Shown here piece after piece: positions 31,467-60,495 of a stretch of DNA of 64,000 bases. The notes under the pieces were generated by a model, which was not told where the DNA came from, made no database searches, and saw nothing but the letters and a program-made list of their open reading frames with translations. Location: the NCBI RefSeq assembly GCF_000746255.1, contig NZ_JQKW01000006.1, forward strand, positions 124,001-188,000. The letters are read 5' to 3'. This stretch comes from Thermodesulfobacterium hydrogeniphilum (lineage in GTDB: Bacteria; Desulfobacterota; Thermodesulfobacteria; Thermodesulfobacteriales; Thermodesulfobacteriaceae). How positions within the stretch are numbered: position 1 is the stretch's first letter; the number at the start of each line of letters is the position of its first letter. The position numbers were made by a program, and so were the translations under genes.

Positions 31467-32696
31467 TTAAAAAAAAGTAACCCCTTCCTCATCTTCTTTC
31501 TTTTCTGAAATTTTCACAAGTTCTTCCAAAGTTTTTCTTGCTATTTCTCTTTCCTTTTCCATAGTATAATAATTTTCCAGTTCTTTTAAAATCTCAGTTT
31601 TTATTCCTGCTTTAACCAAATCATCTTTTAATTTGTCCAACTCATTTTCTTCTATTTCTTCTTTTATTTTTTCTATTATTTTTAAGGTATGCTGGTTCAT
31701 CTGGTTAGTTATGTCTTCGAATTGGAGGTTAAAGATAATCTGGTTAATATTTTCGTAAATGTTAGAATGTTTTTTAATAAAATTTTGATGTTCTTTTTTT
31801 ATTTTTATTATATTTTCTATTAATTCCTTTGCAAATTTTTCAATTAAATTTAATCTTTTTAAGATTTCTACTGTTTCTTCAGCAAAAATAACATATAAAG
31901 ATTCAAACTTTTTTATATTTTTTTGAAATTCTAAAATGATATCTTTAATTTCATTTACAAATTTAGAGCTAAAATCTGCTAATTTTTTTATTTCATTAGC
32001 AACCACTGCAAAACTTTTACCATGCTCTCCAGCTTTTGCAGCTTCAATAGTTGCATTTAAAGCTAATAATTTAGTTTGTTTTGCAATATCAGCAATTCCT
32101 TCTGAAATTTTACTAATATTTTCGATATTTTCTACCAAAGTTTTTATCCTATATTTTCCTGTAATTTCCTTAGTAAACTCACTATCTTCTACAGAAGAAA
32201 CTACTTTTTTTAAAAATTTTTTTAATTCTATATAAATTTTTTCACTATTATTCAAATTTTGACATAATTTTTCTTTTTGACATTCTTCTTTGAACTCGCA
32301 AGATTTACCTTCTAATCTAAAACCAACCATTTCACAAAGATTAAAATTTACTTTTTTATGAATTAAGTCAATTTTTTCTACATCTGAAGCAGCAATTTTA
32401 TCAAATTCTTCTGAAAGCTCCATAAATTTACTAATACTTTCTTGAGTAGCGGTAGAAATATTAGAAGTAGCAGATTGAATAGTTTCAGAAATTACATTCA
32501 ACATTTCTTTCTGTCTTATAAAAATTTTTTTTACATTTATTAAATTTTCTGTCAATTTCTCAATTTCTTTTTCCAATAGTTTATTTCTTTTTTTAAGTTT
32601 TTTTATATTGCTCTCTTTTTTTAATATTATGAAAAGAGAAATTACTCCAAAGGTAATAAACAATAAAACTACAATTCCTAAGACAAGTAAATTCAT
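31467..32696 (-). CDS. Membrane MCP-like chemotaxis protein with a CheZ-type motif
   Basis: 409 aa. One membrane helix (3-25) is followed by a coiled coil, a four-cysteine patch (C121, C133, C139, C145) and an MCP signalling tip (203-241, [20 protein letters not shown]). A helical C-terminus contains LQFEDITNQ (324-332). D328-xxx-Q332 copies the catalytic Asp/Gln spacing of the CheY-phosphate phosphatase CheZ (DFQDLTGQ). The chain ends EEGVTFF, a short aromatic tail. It may combine CheA control and CheY-P dephosphorylation. Last gene of the che operon. Confidence 0.72.
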
Positions 32697-32713: not shown

Positions 32714-35623
32714 TTAAATAATTTTTTCTGGATTTAAAACCAGAACAACATTTCCATCACCCATAATCGTTACTCCAGAAACAAATTCTATGCCTAAAAG
32801 AATATCAGGAACTGGTTTAATTGCTATCTCATTTTTTTTATGAAGTTTATCTACCAGAATACCAAACTTTCCTGTGCGGGTTTTTAAAACCACAATAGAA
32901 ACTTCTTTTTCTTTTTGAAAATTTCTTTTAGAACTTCTTTCATTTTTATAGAGTAAATTTGTTAATTTTTCGCAAGGTAAGATAGAACCTCTATAGTATA
33001 TTCCTATTCTATCATGAAGAGTTTTTAGCTCTACTGCAGGAATTTTAAGAGTCTCTAAAACATAATCAATAGGAATAGCAAAGATTTTATTATTTTCTTC
33101 TATTAGAAGGGCAGATGTTATACCAATGCTGGTAGGAATTACTAAAGTAACTTCTGTGCCCCAATCTTTTTCTGAGCTAATATATACTTTTCCGCCTAAG
33201 GATTCTACTGTAGTTTTAACTACATCCATCCCAACACCGCGTCCTGAAATATCTGTAGCTTTTTCTTTAGTGCTAAATCCTGGCATAAAAATAACATTTA
33301 AAAGCTCTGGATCATCTGGTGATTGAAAATTGAAGCCCTTTTCTTTAGCTTTTTCAAAAAGTTTCTCTCTATCAATTCCTTTTCCATCGTCAATTATCTT
33401 AATAATAAGATTGCTTCCTTCTTGAAAAGCATTTAAAATAACTGTACCTTCTTCTGGTTTCCCTTTGGCTTTTCTTTCATCAGGAGGTTCAATTCCATGA
33501 TCACATGCATTTCTAACTAAATGAATTAAAGGATCAGAAAGCATATCTGCAACTTTTTTATCTATTTCTGTCTCCTCTCCCTCAGTAATAAGTTTTATTA
33601 ATTTACCTTGTTTTCTTGCTATATCTCGTACTGCTCTATGGAATCTCTGAAATATATTCTTTATAGGGATCATTCTCAGAGACATTACACCCTCTTGGAG
33701 ACTGTAAGAGAGTCTGGTAAGTTGATAAAGATTATCTTTAAATGCACGTAAAAATTGTCTATCAAGCTCAAAAAGATTAATTAGAGAATTTAATAAATAT
33801 TCATAAGTATTCCTTACTACCACTAATTCCCCTATAAGATTGGTTAAATTATCAATCTTCCTTTCATCAACTCTCATTGTTTTAATTTCTTCTTCTGCCT
33901 TAACAGTAACCTTAGAACTAAGTTGAGCACCTGTTTCCATAAGTCTCTGCTTTTTAAGTGCTTCTTGCACATCTTCTTTTTTAATCTTTCCTTCTTCAAT
34001 CAAAATTTCCCCTATCTTTTTCTGTTTAGATAAAGCTTCTTTTAAATCTTTTTCAGTAATTTTTTGATCTTCTAATAAAATTTCGCCTAATTTTTTAGCT
34101 CCTCCAGATAAAAGACCTTCTAAAAAGGCTTCAATGCTTTTTAATTCTTTTTGAAAATCTTCAATTTTTTTCTCTTCATGAAGAGATAACGCTCTTTCTA
34201 CCATTTGAGAAAGAGTATAAAGTCCAATATAAGAAGCTGAAGATTTTATACTTCTCAAAGCTCTTAAAATAATTTTTAAATTCTGCTCATCTAAACCCTT
34301 AGGAAGATAAATTTTTATGATATCTCTAAATTGAGAAGCCTGATCTAAAAAAATGTTAAGTGTGTCTTCCGGAGGCAAAGTTTCCTTAGATAAGATTGGT
34401 TTCTCCTTTAAAGATTCTTTAGAAGATAAAATCTCTTTTAACTCATTTTCTATCTGATGAATAGTAGAAGGATACCCTTTATTAGTTTTTAAATTAACAA
34501 TAGTAATTCTTAGAATATCTATAGCTTTCAACAAAGTATCTATAATTGTTGGAGTTCTTTTAACTTTTCCAGATCTTAATCTTTCAAGGAGTGTTTCCAA
34601 ATTATGACAAAATTTAGCTAAAACATTTAGACCAATATAATCAGCATCTCCTTTTAAAGTATGCACAGCTCTAAAAATTGCATTTAACGCTTCTAAAGAA
34701 TTATCCTTTTCATAAGCAAGGATATTTTTTTCTATAGTGTCTAAAGCTTCAAAAGCATCTATCATGAATTCATTAAAAACATCTTTATCTATAGCTTCAA
34801 AAGGAATAAATTCTTCAGCTTCCTCAGGAACTTTAAACTGTAACGATAAGTCTATAATTTCAATTAAAGTTTCATCAAAAACTAAGTCTTTTATCTCTTC
34901 TGTATTTAAATCTGTTGCGATATAAATTACAGGTTGCAAATAAAGAGTTAAAGGATTAAAATCCTTTAAAGGAGGAACGGTGGAAATATCTGTTATAGCT
35001 TGATAGTAAACTGTATTGGATTTTAGATTTTTAAGAAAAATTAAAGGATCAAAACCATTTACATATTCATCTGTAGTATATTTTACCAATATTTTATATA
35101 CTTTATAACCTCTTTCATAATAATCCTTTAAATTTTCAACTATATCTAAAGGTATTTCTTCTTTTTTAATAGAAACTGCTTCTTCTTTATGTATCTTTTC
35201 AGAAGTTTCGATATCTCTAATATTTTCAGATTCTTTGTTTGGAATAGCAAAACTTTTAAATTTTTCTATTAATTCATAATTTATCTCTGGTTTAAGTCCT
35301 TTTTCACAATCTTCAATCATTTTAGCTATATAGTCAAGTCCATTTAAAATTATATCCACAATTTCAGAGGTAAGTTGTATTTCTCTATTTCTTAATTTAT
35401 CAAGTAAAGTTTCTAAGTGATGAGCAAATTCTGATATTTCTTCCAGTTCAAATCCACCTGCACTTCCTTTAATAGTATGAACCCCTCTAAAGATAGAATT
35501 AAGGAGTTCTATATTATCAGGTTCTGTTTCAGCTTTTAAAACATCTTCGGTTGCCTTTTCTATAATTTCTTTAGCTTCTATATAGAATTGTCTACGATAA
35601 TATTCCATTTCATCCATCATCAT
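32714..35623 (-). CDS. cheA: Chemotaxis histidine kinase CheA (multi-HPt)
   Basis: 969 aa from the ATG after AAGGGGTG. Order: HPt1 with H49 ([10 protein letters not shown]), a linker or P2-like region, HPt2 with H321 ([13 protein letters not shown]), a third HPt-like domain in which Arg457 replaces the His ([13 protein letters not shown]), and two MshEN-like repeats (about 511-560, [19 protein letters not shown]). Then come the dimerisation helix pair, the ATPase ([23 protein letters not shown]) and a CheW-like domain. Phosphorylates the CheY proteins encoded just upstream. Confidence 0.95.
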
Positions 35624-35635
35624 ATTTAACACCCC

Positions 35636-36004
35636 TTATCCTATAATTTTCTTTACTACACTTACGAGGACATCTGGTTTAAAAGGTTTTACAATCCAAG
35701 CTTTAGCTCCTGCTTTCCTTCCTTCTTCTTTTTTGGCTTCTTGACTTTCTGTAGTGAGCATTATTACTGGAATAAATCTATACTTCATATCTGCTTTTAA
35801 AGTTTTAATTAGTTCTATTCCATCCATATTAGGCATATTTAAATCGGTAATTATTAAATCTACCTTACCTACCGAAGAAAGTTTGGTAAGAGCATCTTTT
35901 CCATCAGAAGCTTCTACAACCTCATATCCGCTTTTCTTCAAAGTCATAGCGACTAATCCTCTCATAGAAGCAGCATCATCTACAATAAGAATTTTTTTAC
36001 CCAT
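35636..36004 (-). CDS. cheY: CheY-type response regulator
   Basis: Single receiver domain, 122 aa from the ATG preceded by AAGGAGG (a start 7 codons upstream lies before that site). The acidic pair VDD, phospho-acceptor Asp in DLNMPNMDG, Thr in MLTTES and Lys in VKPF are all present. Probably the output regulator phosphorylated by the adjacent CheA. Confidence 0.94.
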   Translation of the reverse strand: MGKKILIVDDAASMRGLVAMTLKKSGYEVVEASDGKDALTKLSSVGKVDLIITDLNMPNMDGIELIKTLKADMKYRFIPVIMLTTESQEAKKEEGRKAGAKAWIVKPFKPDVLVSVVKKIIG

Positions 36005-36014
36005 AAAAACCTCC

Positions 36015-36290
36015 TTAAATTTCAATTCCGTAGAGAGTCTCTATTTCTTCTAAACTCTTCTTTCCTTTAGGAAATCCTATATTGAATCCCGAGTTTTTTA
36101 AAGATATCAAGATTTGAAAATAAGAAGTATCTATATTACACTCCTTAGAAGGAATGATTTCAAATTTTTTTATTTTTTTATTCTTAACAATTTTTGTGAT
36201 TTCATTATAAAATTCCTCTATTTCCATAATAGAACAAGTTTCCTTTAAATAAATTTTTACAGTGCTGTTTTTCTTTTTTATTTCAAACAT
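36015..36290 (-). CDS. STAS-domain-like small protein
   Basis: 91 aa. The C-terminal half (IIPSKECNIDTSYFQILISLKNSGFNI) follows the STAS pattern of a beta strand, DTS, then a helix ending in a Gly turn. STAS proteins sometimes occur in chemotaxis operons as phosphorylation-switched binding partners. It lies between two cheY genes. Confidence 0.6.
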   Translation of the reverse strand: MFEIKKKNSTVKIYLKETCSIMEIEEFYNEITKIVKNKKIKKFEIIPSKECNIDTSYFQILISLKNSGFNIGFPKGKKSLEEIETLYGIEI

Positions 36291-36293
36291 AGT

Positions 36294-36665
36294 TTATTCT
36301 CCTCCTAAAAGCATTTTAATATGTGTAATTAAAGCCTGAGGTTTAACAGGTTTTACTATATACAAATTAGCTCCCGCTTCGTATCCTTTTTGTCTATTAA
36401 TAGCTTCTTCTTGAGTGGTAATAATAATTATGGGTGTCTCTTTATCTAATTCTCTATACTTCTTAATAAAAGTTAATCCATCCATTCTTGGCATATTTAT
36501 ATCACAAAGAATTAAATCATATTCATCTGTTAAAGCTTTTTCCAAAGCCTCCACTCCATCTGCAGCACCATCTACTTGAAAACCTGCTGATTTCAAAATA
36601 TTTCCATGGAAACTTCTAACTACGTGGGAATCATCTACTATTAAAACCTTTCTTATCTTCTTCAT
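36294..36665 (-). CDS. cheY: CheY-type response regulator (second copy)
   Basis: 123-aa receiver with VDDSH, the phospho-acceptor in DINMPRMDG, ITTQE and VKPVKPQAL. Clearly diverged from the other CheY in the operon, so the two probably have different partners (for example the motor, or a phosphate sink). It lies 5 bp from the cheR stop. Confidence 0.93.
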   Translation of the reverse strand: MKKIRKVLIVDDSHVVRSFHGNILKSAGFQVDGAADGVEALEKALTDEYDLILCDINMPRMDGLTFIKKYRELDKETPIIIITTQEEAINRQKGYEAGANLYIVKPVKPQALITHIKMLLGGE

Positions 36666-38406: not shown

Positions 38407-39495
38407 TCAATTAGCTAAACGATTTACCGCTTTTATTATTTCTTCTGCTATTTGATAACTTGGAGCTATAATTTCAGCTCCTCCCCTTTCTATAGCTTCC
38501 TTAGGCATACCGAACACTATAGCTGTTTCCTCAGATTCTGCGATAGTAACACCACCTGCTTTTCTTATTTTCACCATGGCATTAGCTCCATCATCTCCCA
38601 TTCCTGTAAGAAGAACCCCTACAGTATTCCTTCCAAAAACATTTAAAACTGATTCCATCATTATATCTACAGAAGGTATAAAAAGGTGTGGAGGATTAGT
38701 AGAAAGTCTTATTCTAATAACCTTTGATGCTTTCTTTAATAAGAGATGATATCCGCCTTTTCCTAAATATCCATAAGATTTTTTAACAATATCCCCTGCT
38801 TCAGCTTCTTTAATAAAAATTTGAGAATAGGCATCTAATCTTTTAGCAAAAGAATTAGTAAAAGATGGAGGCATATGTTGAACAATAAATATTGCAGCAG
38901 GAAGATCTGCAGGTAATTCCGGAATAATATCCATTAAGGTTTTAGGACCTCCAGTAGAAGCTCCTATAGCTACTGCTACAGGAATTTCTTTGGCAATTTC
39001 TTTTATTTCTGGTATAGATGGTTTAACAACTTTTCTTCTGGGAGGAATTCTTTTTTTAGCTCTTTTTAAAAGTTTATAAAAAATTAATTTCTTTTTAGCT
39101 GCTGCCTTTACTTTTTCTATAATTTCATCAGCTACTTGTTTTAAATTTAGTGATATAGTCCCCCCTGGTTTAGCAACATAATCAAAAGCTCCTAATTCTA
39201 AAGCTTGAAAAGTAATTTCAGCTCCTTCTTGGGTCAATGAACTTACCATAACTACTGGACAAATTTCTTCTTCTACAATATGCTTTAATACAGTTAATCC
39301 ATCCATACCCGGCATATTTACATCTAATGTAATCACATCAGGTTCGAGTTTACGTGCCTTTTCTAAGGCATCTTCCCCATCTCGAGCTGTAGCTATTACC
39401 TCTATTTCAGGATCTGATTCCAAAATTTCTCTTAACATTTTTCGCATTAAAGCTGAATCATCAACTACCAGAACCCTAATCTTCTTTTTCATCAT
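38407..39495 (-). CDS. cheB: Chemotaxis glutamate methylesterase CheB
   Basis: 362 aa. N-terminal receiver (VDDSALMR, DVNMPGMDG), a linker rich in Lys/Arg, and a methylesterase domain with the catalytic Ser in AIGASTGG, His in VQHMPPSFT and Asp in TGMGDDGA. Removes methyl groups from (or deamidates) MCPs when phosphorylated by CheA. Overlaps the CheW gene end by 20 bp. Confidence 0.96.
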   Translation of the reverse strand: MMKKKIRVLVVDDSALMRKMLREILESDPEIEVIATARDGEDALEKARKLEPDVITLDVNMPGMDGLTVLKHIVEEEICPVVMVSSLTQEGAEITFQALELGAFDYVAKPGGTISLNLKQVADEIIEKVKAAAKKKLIFYKLLKRAKKRIPPRRKVVKPSIPEIKEIAKEIPVAVAIGASTGGPKTLMDIIPELPADLPAAIFIVQHMPPSFTNSFAKRLDAYSQIFIKEAEAGDIVKKSYGYLGKGGYHLLLKKASKVIRIRLSTNPPHLFIPSVDIMMESVLNVFGRNTVGVLLTGMGDDGANAMVKIRKAGGVTIAESEETAIVFGMPKEAIERGGAEIIAPSYQIAEEIIKAVNRLAN

Positions 39496-41377
39496 CTTTT
39501 ATCCTTTTAAGTGTTTTTTTCTTTCTTTTAGGTTTTTCATCAGAAGGTTCTGGAACTGTAGTTTCTTCAGAAGATATTAAAGTTTCTAATTTTTCTTTTT
39601 CTTCATCACTTAAAACATTCAGAATATTTATTACTAAAATTATTTTATCTTTTTTTTCCAGTTTGCAAATTGCTTTAATGAAACGAGTATCTATATTTTC
39701 AGCAATAATTTCTGGTGGAGTCTCTAAACTATCCTTTGGAACTCTCAAAACCTCAGAAACTGAATCTACTACAAAACCAACCAATTTATCTTGCAATTTT
39801 ACTATAATTACTTTAGTTGTTTCATCATATGGGCGAAATTCCATTTCAAATCTCTTTCTTAAATCAATAACAGGGATTACATTTCCTCTAAGATTCATAA
39901 CACCTTCTACAAAATAAGGAGCTCTTGGAACAGAAGTTATACTTTCCACTCTGTTAATTTCCTGAACATCTTCTATAGGAATAGCAAAATCAACTTCAGC
40001 AAGTCTAAAGGTAACTAATTGAATTTCTTCTGTAACTGTAGTAACTTCTTTTTCTAATTTTTCTTCTTTTTTAATCATTTCCTTTAACTCCTCAATAGTT
40101 TTTTTATCAAATAAGCTTTCTTCAGAAATAAGCATAATTATTCTTTTTCCTTCTTCCAATTTTGCTATACCTTTTAAATTGTCACTTTTTTCGGTTTTTA
40201 AAATCTCAGGCGGTTTTTCTATAGAATCTTTTGGAACTCTAATTACTTGTTTTATTCTATCTACTAAAATACCTATAGGGATATTAAAGATTTCCAGTAC
40301 CAAAATTCTTTGATCTTCTTTAATGTCTTCAGAAATAGCTTCTTTTAAATTTTTAAAATGCCTTTTTAATTTTTCAAATACAGATAACATGTCATTTTCA
40401 AAAAATTGCAGGGCTGATTCTTTACTATGTTCTTTAACCTTTTGTAAAGTTATTTTAGCCAGTTCATGAAAAAGTTGGTGGTCTTTTTTCATAGATTCAA
40501 TAGCTTGATTTATCTTTTCACTTGAAGTAATAAATTTTTTCATCCACAAACCAAAGCTACATTTATTATGATCAAGTTCACCTCTAAAGGGACTTCCTGT
40601 TTCTATGGAATTTTTTAAATCTCTTACAAAATCTTCATGTTCTTTCAAAATTTTATCTACTTCCTCATTTATATCTTCTGCTAAATCTGAAAAACCGAAT
40701 AATTTTCTTAAATCTATTACAGGAAGTAAAGTATCTCTTACAGCCAAAATTCCAAGAATATACTCAGGAGTTTCTGGAACTTCAGTAATATTACCCACTC
40801 TCAAAATTTCTCTTACTATTTCTATAGGAAAAGCGTATTCTTCTTCAGCAATTGAAAAAGTAACTAATTGAACTTCCTCTATATGCTTTTTTTCTTCTTC
40901 CTCCTGTTCCTCTTTAAATATTTGGGTACTTCTTTTAGTTTCTGAAGTGGTTATTTCAATTTTACATAAATTTTCTAAATTAAGTTTAAGAATAAGCTGA
41001 CCGTTTTTCCTTATAACTCCAGAAATATATTCTTTTTCTATTTCAGAAGATAAAACTTGAGGAGGCGGTTCAACTTCATCCTCCTCTACATCTATTACTC
41101 CTTTTACCTGATCTACTATTAATCCCAAAAAAGTTTTACCTATATCTAAGATTAATACCCTGGTATGAGGAGTAATTTCTATATCAGAAATACCCAGCTT
41201 AATACGAGTATCAATAACTGGGATAATAATTCCTCTTAAATTAGCCAGACCTTTTAAATATTTAGGAGCTCGGGGGATCTCGGTGATTTTTGGATATCTT
41301 ATAATTTCCTTTATTAAATTAGTATCTATACCAAATATTTCTTTTCCTAATTGAAAAGTAACTATTTGATTTCCCAT
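39476..41377 (-). CDS. Triple CheW adaptor with inserted CZB zinc domain
   Basis: 633 aa from the ATG that follows GGGGGT; an in-frame upstream start would overlap the MCP gene. CheW1 is about 1-140. CheW2 starts near 168 and is interrupted after IDLRKLFGFSD by a CZB domain (about 235-345: H247, H270, C273 in DHNKCSFGLWM, H300/H304), then resumes at about 356-430. CheW3 is about 465-590, and a Lys-rich tail follows. It couples MCP to CheA. CZB domains bind zinc and sense zinc or HOCl in other proteins. The only CheW of this operon. Confidence 0.88.
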   Translation of the reverse strand: MGNQIVTFQLGKEIFGIDTNLIKEIIRYPKITEIPRAPKYLKGLANLRGIIIPVIDTRIKLGISDIEITPHTRVLILDIGKTFLGLIVDQVKGVIDVEEDEVEPPPQVLSSEIEKEYISGVIRKNGQLILKLNLENLCKIEITTSETKRSTQIFKEEQEEEEKKHIEEVQLVTFSIAEEEYAFPIEIVREILRVGNITEVPETPEYILGILAVRDTLLPVIDLRKLFGFSDLAEDINEEVDKILKEHEDFVRDLKNSIETGSPFRGELDHNKCSFGLWMKKFITSSEKINQAIESMKKDHQLFHELAKITLQKVKEHSKESALQFFENDMLSVFEKLKRHFKNLKEAISEDIKEDQRILVLEIFNIPIGILVDRIKQVIRVPKDSIEKPPEILKTEKSDNLKGIAKLEEGKRIIMLISEESLFDKKTIEELKEMIKKEEKLEKEVTTVTEEIQLVTFRLAEVDFAIPIEDVQEINRVESITSVPRAPYFVEGVMNLRGNVIPVIDLRKRFEMEFRPYDETTKVIIVKLQDKLVGFVVDSVSEVLRVPKDSLETPPEIIAENIDTRFIKAICKLEKKDKIILVINILNVLSDEEKEKLETLISSEETTVPEPSDEKPKRKKKTLKRIKDDEKED

Positions 41378-41390
41378 TTTATACCCCCTT

Positions 41391-43340
41391 TTACATACTC
41401 TGCAATTCATCAGCAAGAGAAGCTATCTCTTCTATCGCCTGAGAAAGTTCTTGAATTCCTCTGGCTTGCTCTTCTGCGGCTGCAGCTGCTTCTGCAACAG
41501 CTTTAGCAGCTTCTTCAGATGCAGAGGCAATTTGATCTATAGCCTTTTTAGATTCTTCAATAGCTCTTAAGGCTTCCTGAGCAAGCTCTAAACTTTCTGC
41601 AAGTGCTGTAAGTGTATCTTTTATATTTTCATCTATTTTAACAAGAGATTGAGAGGCTACCTTTGATTTTTCTGCTTCCCCTTTAGCAGTTTTAGCTGCA
41701 AGTTCTATTTCTTGCATACATACATTAATTATATCTTGTAAATTTCTTACCAAATCTTTAATTTTATCTGCATTTTCCGCTGATTCTGTAGCAAGATTTC
41801 TTATATCACTTGCTACTACAGAAAAACCTTTACCATATTCCCCTGCTCGGGCTGCTTCAATAGAACCGCTTACAGCAAGCATATTAGTTAAAATTGTTAC
41901 ATTCATAATAACCTCAACTATTTTTTCAATCTTCCTGGTGTGTTTTTCTAAAGTTTTTATATTTTCCAAAGCCTTTAAATTATCCTCAGCAGATTGTTTA
42001 ATATTTTCAATCATGCTCTCTACATTAATTTTATTTTCATTTACCAATTTGCTGACCTCTTCACAATCTTTTACAAGTTGATTTGCTCTACCTTCTATTT
42101 GTTTGGCAGAAGCTATAAGTCTTTCTGCTATTTCACTGGCATTTTGAGTTTCTTTGGCTTGAAGATCTGAAGCAGTTTTTATTTGATCAATAGCCTGAGC
42201 AAGTTCTTGAGCAGCTGTACTGGTTTCTTCTATATTAGCAGAAAGCTCCTCTGCCATAGCAGCTACTTCTTCAGCAGATTTTTTAGTATCTGTAGAAGTT
42301 TTCAATTCTTCAGCTACCTGTGCCAATTCTTGAGCAGCTACAGACATCTCACCCAATGCTTTGGATTGCATTTCTGTCCCTTTCCTTGCTTCCTCTGCTG
42401 AAGAAGCAAGTTCTTCCGCTGCTGTAGCAATTTGTTCTGCACTTTTCAAAAAGTTTCTTGCTTCCTCTAAAGTTTTATTTGCTACATCTACTATTTCTTC
42501 AGTAGCTTTTAAAAATTCATCCATTTTTTGAGTTATATTTTGTAGTTCCTCTCTTATTGTTTTCCCTTTTTCAGCCTCATTCTTAGCATTATTACTTATT
42601 TGATTAATTTCATCTACCACTGTTCTTACTGAATTTTGAATTTCCGCCACTAATTCTCTTATATCTCGGGCACTTTTCTCCGAAGTCTCAGCAAGATTTC
42701 TAACTTCATCAGCTACTACTGCAAAACCTCTTCCGTGTTCCCCTGCACGAGCTGCTTCAATAGCTGCATTTAAAGCCAGCAAATTGGTTTGATCAGCAAT
42801 CCTCACTACTGCTTGAACAATATTTCCTATCTCCTCTGATTGTTTTTCAAGTTCCTCTATTAATTTAGAAGTTTCAAGAGCGGCTTCAGAGGCATTATGA
42901 ACACCTTCAATTAAAAGTTCAATTTGAGAAACAGTGCCTTCGATTAAATTTTTGACATTTTTAACTTTTTCTAAATTCTGTTTAGCATTTTGGGCTATTC
43001 TTGTAGAGCCCTTTTCTATTTGAACTACAGAGGCACGAATTTGTTCAGCAGCACCACTTGTTTCTTCAGCACCAGCAGCAATCTGTTCCATAGAACGATT
43101 AAGTTCTTCTGCAGCAGCACTTGATTCTTCAATAGCTGAAGCAAGTTCTTCTGACGCTGCAGCTATTCTTTCAGCTATTTGCTGCTGTTTAGCAAGAGTT
43201 CGAGCACGAGCTTTTTCTTGAGCAAGTTTTTTAGCTTTCTCTCTTTTAAGAGACAAACCTTCTTCAGCTATTCCTTTAGGATGCTCTTCTGGTTTAGCTA
43301 AACCTTTAGATTTAATCCCCAATTTTTTTTCTTCAGCCAT
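41391..43340 (-). CDS. Soluble methyl-accepting chemotaxis protein with two signalling tips
   Basis: 649 aa with no membrane helix and no recognisable sensor domain. Almost entirely Ala/Glu-rich coiled coil, with two MCP hairpin tips: a canonical one (about 178-216, [20 protein letters not shown]) and a variant (about 478-516, [20 protein letters not shown]). The tips are exactly 300 residues apart, suggesting internal duplication. EE-rich candidate methylation helices flank both. Probably the operon's main receptor. Confidence 0.9.
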
Positions 43341-57973: not shown

Positions 57974-59004
57974 ACTTAGATTTACTTAAAAACAAAAAAA
58001 TTTTTCTTATTGGTGGCACAGGTTTTTTTGGCAGATGGCTTCTGGAAAGATTTGTCCATTTTAACAATACATTTAATTTAAAAACTAGGCTTTTCATTTT
58101 GAGCAGAAATCCAGAAAAATTTTTATCTAATAATCCTCAGTTTAAAAAGCGAAAAGATATGGTTTTTGTTAAAGGAGATGTAAGAAATTTTGAATTTTTA
58201 AAAGAAAAATTTCATTACATTATTCATGCAGCTTTACCTGCAAGTTATACCCAAATTAAACCCATAGAATTGTTGGACATTGGTATAAATGGAACCAAAA
58301 GAGTTTTAGAATTTGCTAAGTATTGTAAAGCTGAAAAATTTTTATTCATAAGCTCAGGGGTGGTTTATGGTAAACAGCTTTCTGAGATAAAAAAACTTTC
58401 AGAGAATTCCTTTGGAAGCTTGGAAATAAATCCAGAAAATCCCAAAATATATTATGCTGAAGCCAAAAGAGTAGGGGAACTTTTATGTTATGAAGCTATG
58501 AAAGAATGGGGATTAAATATCGTAATAGCCAGATGTTTTTCTTTTATAGGTCCTTATATGGAACTGAATTCCCACCTTGCAGTAGGAAATTTTGTCCGGG
58601 ATGCTTTGAAAGGTGGACCAATTATTATTAAAAGTGATGGTAGAAAAATTAATTCCTACATGTATGCAGAAGACCTTGCTATCTGGCTCTGGACTATTTT
58701 ACTGAAAGGCAAACCAGGAGAAGCCTATAATGTAGGCTCTGAAAAAGAAATATCTTTAAAAGAGCTTGCTCAGAAGATAGCAGAGATCTATGCAGAACTT
58801 ACAGGAAAAAAAGTTGATATAATAATAAAAAAACAACCTGAGCCAGGGAAAATTCCAGAAAGATATGTGCCTTCAACTGAAAAAGCTAAAAAAGAACTTG
58901 GGTTAAAAGAAACTGTAAGCTTAGAGGAGGCTATTAGAAAAACTCTCCAGTTTTACCACACTTTCCAGGGAGCTTTTCCTGAAAACCATAGAGAGTCTAA
59001 ATAG
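57970..59004 (+). CDS. NAD-dependent epimerase/dehydratase
   Basis: 344-aa extended SDR. GGTGFFGRWLLERF binds NAD, FISSGVVYG holds the catalytic Ser, and YYAEAKRVGE the Tyr-x3-Lys. Acts on a nucleotide sugar, possibly reducing or epimerising the CDP-4-keto-6-deoxyhexose from RfbG; this is inference. TTG start overlapping the previous stop. The last 15 or so residues (after LQFYH) run through the antisense end of the convergent rfbF gene and may be non-native. Confidence 0.85.
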   Translation: MNLDLLKNKKIFLIGGTGFFGRWLLERFVHFNNTFNLKTRLFILSRNPEKFLSNNPQFKKRKDMVFVKGDVRNFEFLKEKFHYIIHAALPASYTQIKPIELLDIGINGTKRVLEFAKYCKAEKFLFISSGVVYGKQLSEIKKLSENSFGSLEINPENPKIYYAEAKRVGELLCYEAMKEWGLNIVIARCFSFIGPYMELNSHLAVGNFVRDALKGGPIIIKSDGRKINSYMYAEDLAIWLWTILLKGKPGEAYNVGSEKEISLKELAQKIAEIYAELTGKKVDIIIKKQPEPGKIPERYVPSTEKAKKELGLKETVSLEEAIRKTLQFYHTFQGAFPENHRESK

Positions 59005-59717
59005 TTTTTATCTTTAAGAGTCTCCAGAGAATACCAAAATCCTTTGTGTTTATAGGCACTTAGCTGATTTTCTTGATTTAACTTTCCAAGAACATAATTC
59101 CAATCTGTCTCATCACCTTCTATGTAATCTAAAACTTCAGAAGATACAACGAAAAAACCTCCGCAAAACCATCCAAATTCTTCTTGAGGAGCGCTTACAA
59201 TTTCTATTTTATCTTCAAAAATTCTCCATTCTGCATACCGAGCTGGATGTCTTGTTGCAAGAGCTGTTATTTTTTTACCACTCAACTTATGGAATTTGAT
59301 TTCTTCTTCAATATTTACATCAGCTAAGCAATCTCCATAAGTGAAACAGAATATATTTTCATTTTTTAAGTATTTAGCAACTCTTTTAAGTCTCCCCCCT
59401 GTTTGGGTGTTTTCTCCTGTATCAACGATGGTAATTTTCCATGATTCGGCTTTGGAAGAATGATAGGTAATAGAGTTATTTTTGAGATCCACGGTGAGAT
59501 CAGAATTATGCAGGAAGTAATTTGCGAAATATTCTTTGATTATATAGCCTTTATATCCCACACAGATAATGAATTCATTTATACTATAGACAGAGTATAT
59601 TTTCATAATATGCCAGAGTATAGGCTTTCCTCCGATTTCTACCATGGGTTTGGGTTTGAATTCGGTTTCAGGAAAGAGTCTTTCTCCTTTTCCTCCTGCA
59701 AGTATAACAGCTTTCAT
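58953..59717 (-). CDS. rfbF: Glucose-1-phosphate cytidylyltransferase paralogue (second rfbF, diverged C-terminal half)
   Basis: 254 aa. The first half ([33 protein letters not shown]...TYGD) is nearly identical to the upstream rfbF, while the second half differs strongly: YGDCLAD for YGDGLTD, and EIVSAPQEEFGWFCGGFF where the other has [18 protein letters not shown]. The EKP motif that helps hold the sugar phosphate is missing, so activity or substrate may be changed. Ends with APWKVW like its twin. Overlaps the convergent epimerase by 52 bp. Confidence 0.82.
   Translation of the reverse strand: MKAVILAGGKGERLFPETEFKPKPMVEIGGKPILWHIMKIYSVYSINEFIICVGYKGYIIKEYFANYFLHNSDLTVDLKNNSITYHSSKAESWKITIVDTGENTQTGGRLKRVAKYLKNENIFCFTYGDCLADVNIEEEIKFHKLSGKKITALATRHPARYAEWRIFEDKIEIVSAPQEEFGWFCGGFFVVSSEVLDYIEGDETDWNYVLGKLNQENQLSAYKHKGFWYSLETLKDKNYLDSLWFSGKAPWKVW
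59331..59659. repeat. 329-bp duplicated segment, copy A (in the diverged rfbF)
   Basis: Matches 60109-60437 with 7 differences, all transitions, no indels. Identity stops abruptly at both ends. Confidence 0.93.
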
Positions 59718-59718
59718 T

Positions 59719-60495
59719 TTAGTCTTTCCAGACTTTCCAAGGTGCTTTACCTGAGGCCCAGAGTTTTTCCAAGTAAAGTTTATCTCTCAAGGTGTCCATA
59801 GGGTGCCAGAATTCCGTGTGTTTAAATGCTACGAGTTCTCCCATTTCAGCAAGTTTTTTAAGGGGTTCTGCCTCCCAAGGTGTATCGTCTCCTTCTATTA
59901 AATCTAAAACTTTTGTAGATAAAACGAAAAATCCTCCGTTTATCCAGCCTCCGTCTCCAGGTGGTTTTTCTATAAAATCTATTACAGATTCTCCTTCTAT
60001 TTTCAATGCTCCAAATCTCCCAGGAGGTTGGACAGCAAGAATAGTAGCAAGTTTACCATGGGTTTTATGAAATTTTATTTCCTCTGCAATGTTGGCATCT
60101 GTAAGACCATCTCCATAAGTGAAACAGAATATATTTTCATTTTTTAAGTATTTGGCAACTCTTTTAAGTCTCCCCCCTGTTTGGGTATTTTCTCCTGTGT
60201 CAACGATGGTAATTTTCCATGGTTCGGCTTTGGAAGAATGATAGGTAATAGAGTTATTTTTGAGATCCACGGTGAGATCAGAGTTATGCAGGAAGTAATT
60301 TGCGAAATATTCTTTGATCATATAGCCTTTATATCCCACACAGATAATGAATTCATTTATACCATAGACAGAGTATATTTTCATAATATGCCAGAGTATA
60401 GGCTTTCCTCCGATTTCTACCATGGGTTTGGGTTTGACTACAGTTTCTTCCATTAAACGAGTGCCTTTTCCTCCAGCAAGAATAACCGCTTTCAT
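59719..60495 (-). CDS. rfbF: Glucose-1-phosphate cytidylyltransferase
   Basis: 258 aa. [67 protein letters not shown] and a [11 protein letters not shown] tail are the complete family pattern. Makes CDP-glucose from CTP and glucose-1-phosphate, the substrate of RfbG at 45771. One base separates it from the second rfbF copy downstream. Confidence 0.94.
60109..60437. repeat. 329-bp duplicated segment, copy B (in canonical rfbF)
   Basis: Partner of 59331-59659, offset 778 bp. Covers roughly the region encoding residues 20-129. Confidence 0.93.

Follow-up and report, generated by a model that had tools for sequence, protein, structure and literature searches.

A hybrid gene at the end of a chemotaxis operon

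The stretch of DNA analysed here (the window, 64,000 nucleotides) carries a run of chemotaxis (che) genes on its minus strand that ends with the gene P0001 (32696-31467), beyond which a flagellin gene lies on the opposite strand. The P0001 open reading frame was confirmed on the minus strand, which the original prediction had not named, the forward strand at 31467-32696 being riddled with stops. Gene order from 39495 to 31467 (minus strand) and Pfam searches of the operon genes bear out two claims of the original prediction: that this gene closes the operon, and that the operon encodes two CheY proteins and no separate CheZ, CheC or CheX. The genes are as follows:

39495-38407, minus strand: CheB, in the che run
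38410-37496, minus strand: HEAT protein, in the che run
37524-36670, minus strand: CheR, in the che run
36294..36665, minus strand: the operon's second CheY (DINMP, TTQE; Pfam)
36015..36290, minus strand: small STAS-like protein between both CheY (by position and sequence; without a Pfam hit)
35636..36025, minus strand: canonical CheY (DLNMP, TTES, WIVKPF; Pfam), of the type found beside MCP-CheZ genes elsewhere
32714..35632, minus strand: CheA with three Hpt domains, immediately upstream of the hybrid gene (Pfam)
31467..32696, minus strand: MCP-CheZ hybrid gene P0001, 409 aa, the final gene of the che operon (Pfam, family profile)

Some neighbouring genes have features of their own. The linker of the CheA (32714-35632, minus strand) contains tandem LGEILxExxxIxxxxLxxAL repeats that also occur in the CheA of N. 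defluvii (L129) and that resemble MshEN-type c-di-GMP-binding motifs. A soluble MCP-like protein with two signalling tips per chain and without a transmembrane (TM) helix is encoded at 41391-43340 (minus strand), and the protein encoded at 39476-41416 (minus strand) has three CheW-like segments with a CZB-like stretch between them (a zinc-binding chemoreceptor motif, recognised by eye). Elsewhere in the window, two adjoining nucleotidyltransferase genes with nearly identical first halves (58953-60495, minus strand) look like a tandem duplication.

Features of the P0001 protein

The P0001 protein combines elements of a chemoreceptor with elements of the CheY-P phosphatase CheZ:

32619..32693, minus strand: single N-terminal TM helix, residues ~2-26 (sequence and AF2 helix; predicted to insert into the membrane)
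32388..32519, minus strand: CheZ-type N-helix, residues 60-103 ([14 protein letters not shown]; family N-profile)
32262..32336, minus strand: four-cysteine segment C121, C133, C139 and C145, with spacing 11, 5, 5 (alignment)
31737..32147, minus strand: MCP signalling domain, residues 184-320, tip at ~213-229 (PF00015; PDB MCP matches)
31701..31727, minus strand: putative catalytic motif LQFEDITNQ, residues 324-332, with D328 and Q332 (sequence, family alignment)
31548..31568, minus strand: YTMEKER motif, residues 377-383, conserved in the family (alignment)
31470..31484, minus strand: C-terminal tail GVTFF (end EEGVTFF), in the family [VI]x[LF]F (sequence)

The receptor part is unambiguous, with Pfam MCPsignal (PF00015) matching residues 184-320 at E 2.9e-24, and NCBIfam and PDB sequence searches with P0001 returned MCPs only. 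Pfam detected neither a sensor domain nor HAMP, and putative CheZ helices lie at the position expected of the methylation region. The D-x-x-x-Q signature lies on a helix and is preceded by a phenylalanine (F326). It had been placed downstream of the MCP tip by the original prediction, whose residue numbering is correct: L324-Q-F-E-D328-I-T-N-Q332 follows residues 184-320. P0001 itself is matched by none of the Pfam profiles for CheZ, CheC and CheX.

Within the family described below, P0001 is distinguished by the four-cysteine segment within its N-helix. The cysteines are kept in both close orthologues (L002 and L003), and the AF2 model of P0001 has a low-confidence loop at ~128-140, around this segment. 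Judging by the residues, the segment that interrupts the N-helix is possibly a metal or redox site or sensor.

P0001 belongs to a widespread family

Two genomes of the same genus encode close orthologues of P0001 (61% identity). We gathered the wider family by scanning the GTDB collection with a C-terminal alignment and motif, and fetched 80 loci, mostly from Nitrospirota, with further loci from Thermodesulfobacteriota, Spirochaetes, Deferribacteres and Delongbacteria and from MAGs labelled Geobacter. In the window's own phylum the C-terminal alignment matches 130 of 395 genomes (E<=0.01), some of these matches being standalone CheZ or other proteins. The P0001 family is thus widespread, and it is unannotated. 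Typical members have 370-450 aa and carry a TM helix, a tip, [LM]QFQDITRQ and YTMESER. A C-terminal profile from which P0001 and its orthologues had been left out still detects P0001 at E = 1.2e-16 (best genuine control MCP, 2.4e-4), so P0001 is a true though divergent member. This value, together with the same motif position in dozens of proteins, rules out a chance motif.

The residues F, D, I, T and Q of the motif are largely conserved across phyla. As the scan pattern itself required D and Q, the invariance of these two in the scanned set is partly circular; in a looser profile search, every MCP-type ORF examined retains both, including the divergent L165 that the pattern had missed. Apparently another unannotated relative is formed by proteins of 620-700 aa (L172-L178) in which both halves are MCP-like but degenerate, and which carry QFHDITRQ or QFQDITRQ internally, a YTMxxER motif and a DNVELF/NVEFF-type tail.

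Both flanks of the tip are related to CheZ

Because D and Q had been demanded by the scan, we sought evidence for a relationship to CheZ that the pattern did not select. Only one Pfam entry matches the family more often than CheZ does (51 of 58 members at E<=1, best 1.4e-7), the CheZ matches of relatives seen in genome searches falling below the curated cut-off. A profile of 16 standalone CheZ proteins recognised 91 of 95 family members, as against 5 of 89 control MCPs (E<1e-2). The N-terminal half of CheZ played no part in selecting the family, and it matches the stretch ahead of the tip in 50/94 members and in 3/89 control MCPs. When the tip was excised, hhalign aligned the family collinearly with standalone CheZ (97.6% probability, E 3.7e-12; 71.8% for the N-helix and 96.3% for the C-helix by itself), while ordinary MCPs treated likewise gave 0.3%. 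Outside the motif, the hydrophobic pattern tracks CheZ only in register (r 0.71 for the family, 0.55 for P0001), and the hydrophobic stripe rotates at the active site equally in the family and in CheZ.

For P0001 alone the signal is fainter. A family N-profile matches it at E 0.0019 and its orthologues at 1.6e-4 and 3.8e-4, with none of the 89 controls below 1e-3; the CheZ N-half profile reaches its residues 60-103 at a non-significant value (iE 0.56). A profile limited to P0001 and the two orthologues is too thin to be decisive and compares weakly with CheZ (24% for the C part; the N part weak and outside the expected register). P0001's own sequence thus matches CheZ weakly, and its relationship to CheZ is one that we infer through the family.

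A receptor tip probably placed at the turn of a CheZ-type hairpin

How are the two parts joined? The original prediction of an MCP-CheZ fusion is partly supported: family homology on both sides of the tip, the fixed geometry and the CheY pairing speak for a receptor with a CheZ-type site, and the order MCP-then-CheZ is wrong. A simple end-to-end fusion is rejected because the CheZ N-helix stands before the tip. Very probably, the CheZ hairpin instead carries the MCP tip (~155 residues) at its turn, with the N-helix before the tip and the D-xxx-Q helix after it. D lies 115 residues from the tip in almost every member and 114 in P0001, within a total range of 113-117; an uninterrupted helix would have just such a fixed spacing. 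The AF2 model of P0001 has a single helix (223-350) passing through D328 and Q332, and that of the N. defluvii protein has one tip-spanning helix (113-315); both are monomer models (pTM 0.38), with the dimer and CheY docking beyond their reach. Foldseek returned only MCPs among its significant matches, with CheZ not in the top matches.

A tip-less, TM-anchored relative on a Nitrospirota contig (L139) has a TE-to-D distance of 60, the length of a CheZ hairpin (58-71, mostly 63, in standalone CheZ). Its gene follows motA/motB and precedes cheY/cheA, like the MCP-CheZ gene of N. defluvii, and the protein shares a YTMETER motif and an NVTFF tail. Separately, a group of CheZ proteins (L221-L237) is split at the hairpin turn by inserts, many with FPLDxVFQTxYELCTNExVKKHIK. 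These resemble the hybrid in having CheZ halves parted by a segment inserted at the turn, and differ in that the inserts are not MCP tips.

These data bear on the idea that P0001 is a plain chemoreceptor or array scaffold, its motif being a structural feature of the MCP helix unrelated to CheZ function. The intact MCP tip and the weakness of P0001's own CheZ match speak for it, but against it stand the lack of a CheZ match in ordinary MCPs, the presence of both CheZ helices, the tip-less version at an equivalent site (L139) and the gene's position next to cheY, so we regard it as improbable.

The hybrid is paired with a CheY

A single-domain CheY gene lies directly downstream of the hybrid gene in 65 of 75 loci, compared with 0 of 30 for other MCPs in the same loci, and CheA is usually next. 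The pair are also neighbours in another genus (L188). Most adjacent CheY proteins (54/65) have N and E at D+2 and T+2, as does E. coli CheY, and the CheY at 35636-36025 likewise has N and E at both of these variable active-site positions (by eye). On this sequence evidence it is the likely substrate of P0001. The hybrid could in principle serve another receiver (CheB, the other CheY or one of the second cluster), with cross-talk between two CheA systems. The operon does have two CheY and the genome two CheA clusters, yet one conserved CheY type is directly adjacent in most relatives, and we consider this highly improbable.

We then asked which other phosphatases accompany the hybrid; genome-wide statements of presence or absence rest on profile searches. 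Such searches found no CheZ and no CheC in the window's genome, and one CheX, another CheY-P phosphatase, whose E-xx-N motif reads GEMTN and whose gene adjoins a second che cluster that includes a further CheA. In G093, Pfam CheZ matches the hybrid alone, and CheX and CheC were not found by profile searches. An intact hybrid accompanies two CheA in G000, G008, G018 and G093. Among same-genus genomes with one CheA, a related hybrid gene is broken in G013 (L186, 7018-7731) and G001 (L187), and none was detected in G010. In the two genomes with the broken copy, the matches of 144 aa are its remnants, which rules them out as a standalone phosphatase. Several relatives, such as N. defluvii, have a standalone CheZ as well, and the hybrid is therefore not a simple CheZ replacement.

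The residue between T and Q, which is G in CheZ, is R in the family and N in P0001; to judge from the motif, this change could disturb docking on CheY. Alternatively, the CheZ-derived bundle of P0001 might bind CheY-P at the array with its phosphatase activity lost, for localisation, buffering or as a phosphate sink, and CheX or spontaneous decay would end the signal. The replaced G of DxxGQ and the extra phosphatases in several genomes favour such a role. It is nevertheless unlikely in view of the motif residues D, Q, F, I and T, largely retained across phyla (D and Q also in L165), and of systems like G093 without another recognised phosphatase.

The C-terminal tail is a family feature

The EEGVTFF end, which the original prediction had likened to the short CheY-binding tail of CheZ, is present and is a feature of the family: 52 of 98 family ORFs have a [VI]-x-[LF]-F tail. 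The likeness itself did not hold, as the standalone CheZ proteins examined end in the usual LLxxLGL/F type. The tail might be a CheR-tethering pentapeptide such as NWETF; similarity to that is confined to the N/D-V-E-L-F forms, and the L139 protein, which has no tip, carries such a tail as well. A copy of the FliM peptide was rejected, since the FliM of this genome has the usual LSQEEIDALL, unlike GVTFF.

A candidate phosphatase within the receptor array

By analogy with the known biochemistry of CheZ, D and Q would act on CheY-P. From its sequence and that of its relatives, P0001 is probably an array-embedded CheY-P phosphatase, which we take as the best reading. The hybrid would be anchored in the membrane, with its MCP tip prolonging the turn of a CheZ-type hairpin. 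A pair of such chains would make up a continuous four-helix rod consisting of a membrane helix, a CheZ bundle with D328 and Q332, and the receptor tip, the bundle substituting for the usual methylation helices. By docking with CheA and CheW, the tip would keep P0001 in the array of its own CheA, where P0001 would dephosphorylate an operon CheY, most likely that at 35636-36025, by the CheZ mechanism: Q332 would position the attacking water and D328 would contact CheY. We infer the dimeric rod, the array membership, the phosphatase activity and the choice of CheY; supported here are the family, its CheZ homology flanking the tip, the fixed register, the CheY/CheA linkage and a genome without CheZ or CheC. 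Tentatively, the continuous coiled-coil rod might also couple receptor to phosphatase, such that signals passing between membrane, bundle and CheA-bound tip switch phosphatase and kinase oppositely within one protein. If so, the array would control CheY-P decay as well as production.

With CheZ of the E. coli type (PF04344), the hybrid shares a hairpin made of a T-E-x-A N-helix and an F-[QE]-D-x-T-x-Q helix, the same register, the same hydrophobic phase and linkage to cheY. By contrast with CheZ, it has an MCP tip of ~155 residues in the turn, an N-terminal TM helix, R/N rather than G before Q, and a [VI]x[LF]F rather than an LLxxLGF tail. Like MCPs (PF00015) it has an intact signalling tip and a membrane anchor; unlike them, it has no ligand-binding domain or HAMP that we found, and CheZ helices stand where the methylation region would be. 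The closest precedents for the hybrid are CheA3 and CheT. The phosphatase region of CheA3 from Rhodobacter sphaeroides is of another type. A study citing Porter 2008 (PMC2829493) describes this CheY6-specific CheY phosphatase as lying within a core array protein; it is fused to a kinase, whereas the CheZ module of the hybrid is joined to a receptor. The DXXXQ protein CheT of Sinorhizobium meliloti has a predicted CheZ-like fold and dephosphorylates one of two CheYs; it is described in complex with CheR, and an MCP tip is not described for it (review PMC12654446). Full-text searches of open-access literature returned no account of a receptor with a CheZ module.

In many chemotaxis systems a CheZ has not been recognised. 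For Geobacter, a survey of 2008 held that the mechanism must be CheZ-independent (PMC2577667), yet the hybrid is present in MAGs labelled Geobacter (L117, L131). If active, the hybrid would provide whole clades with a phosphatase they had seemed to lack, its stoichiometry within the receptor array being fixed, and direct array control of signal decay would become testable. Our findings suggest that receptor and CheZ hairpins can replace each other structurally, and the direct adjacency to a CheY gene in most relatives, which span several phyla, suggests an overlooked way of wiring the signal off-switch into the receptor array.
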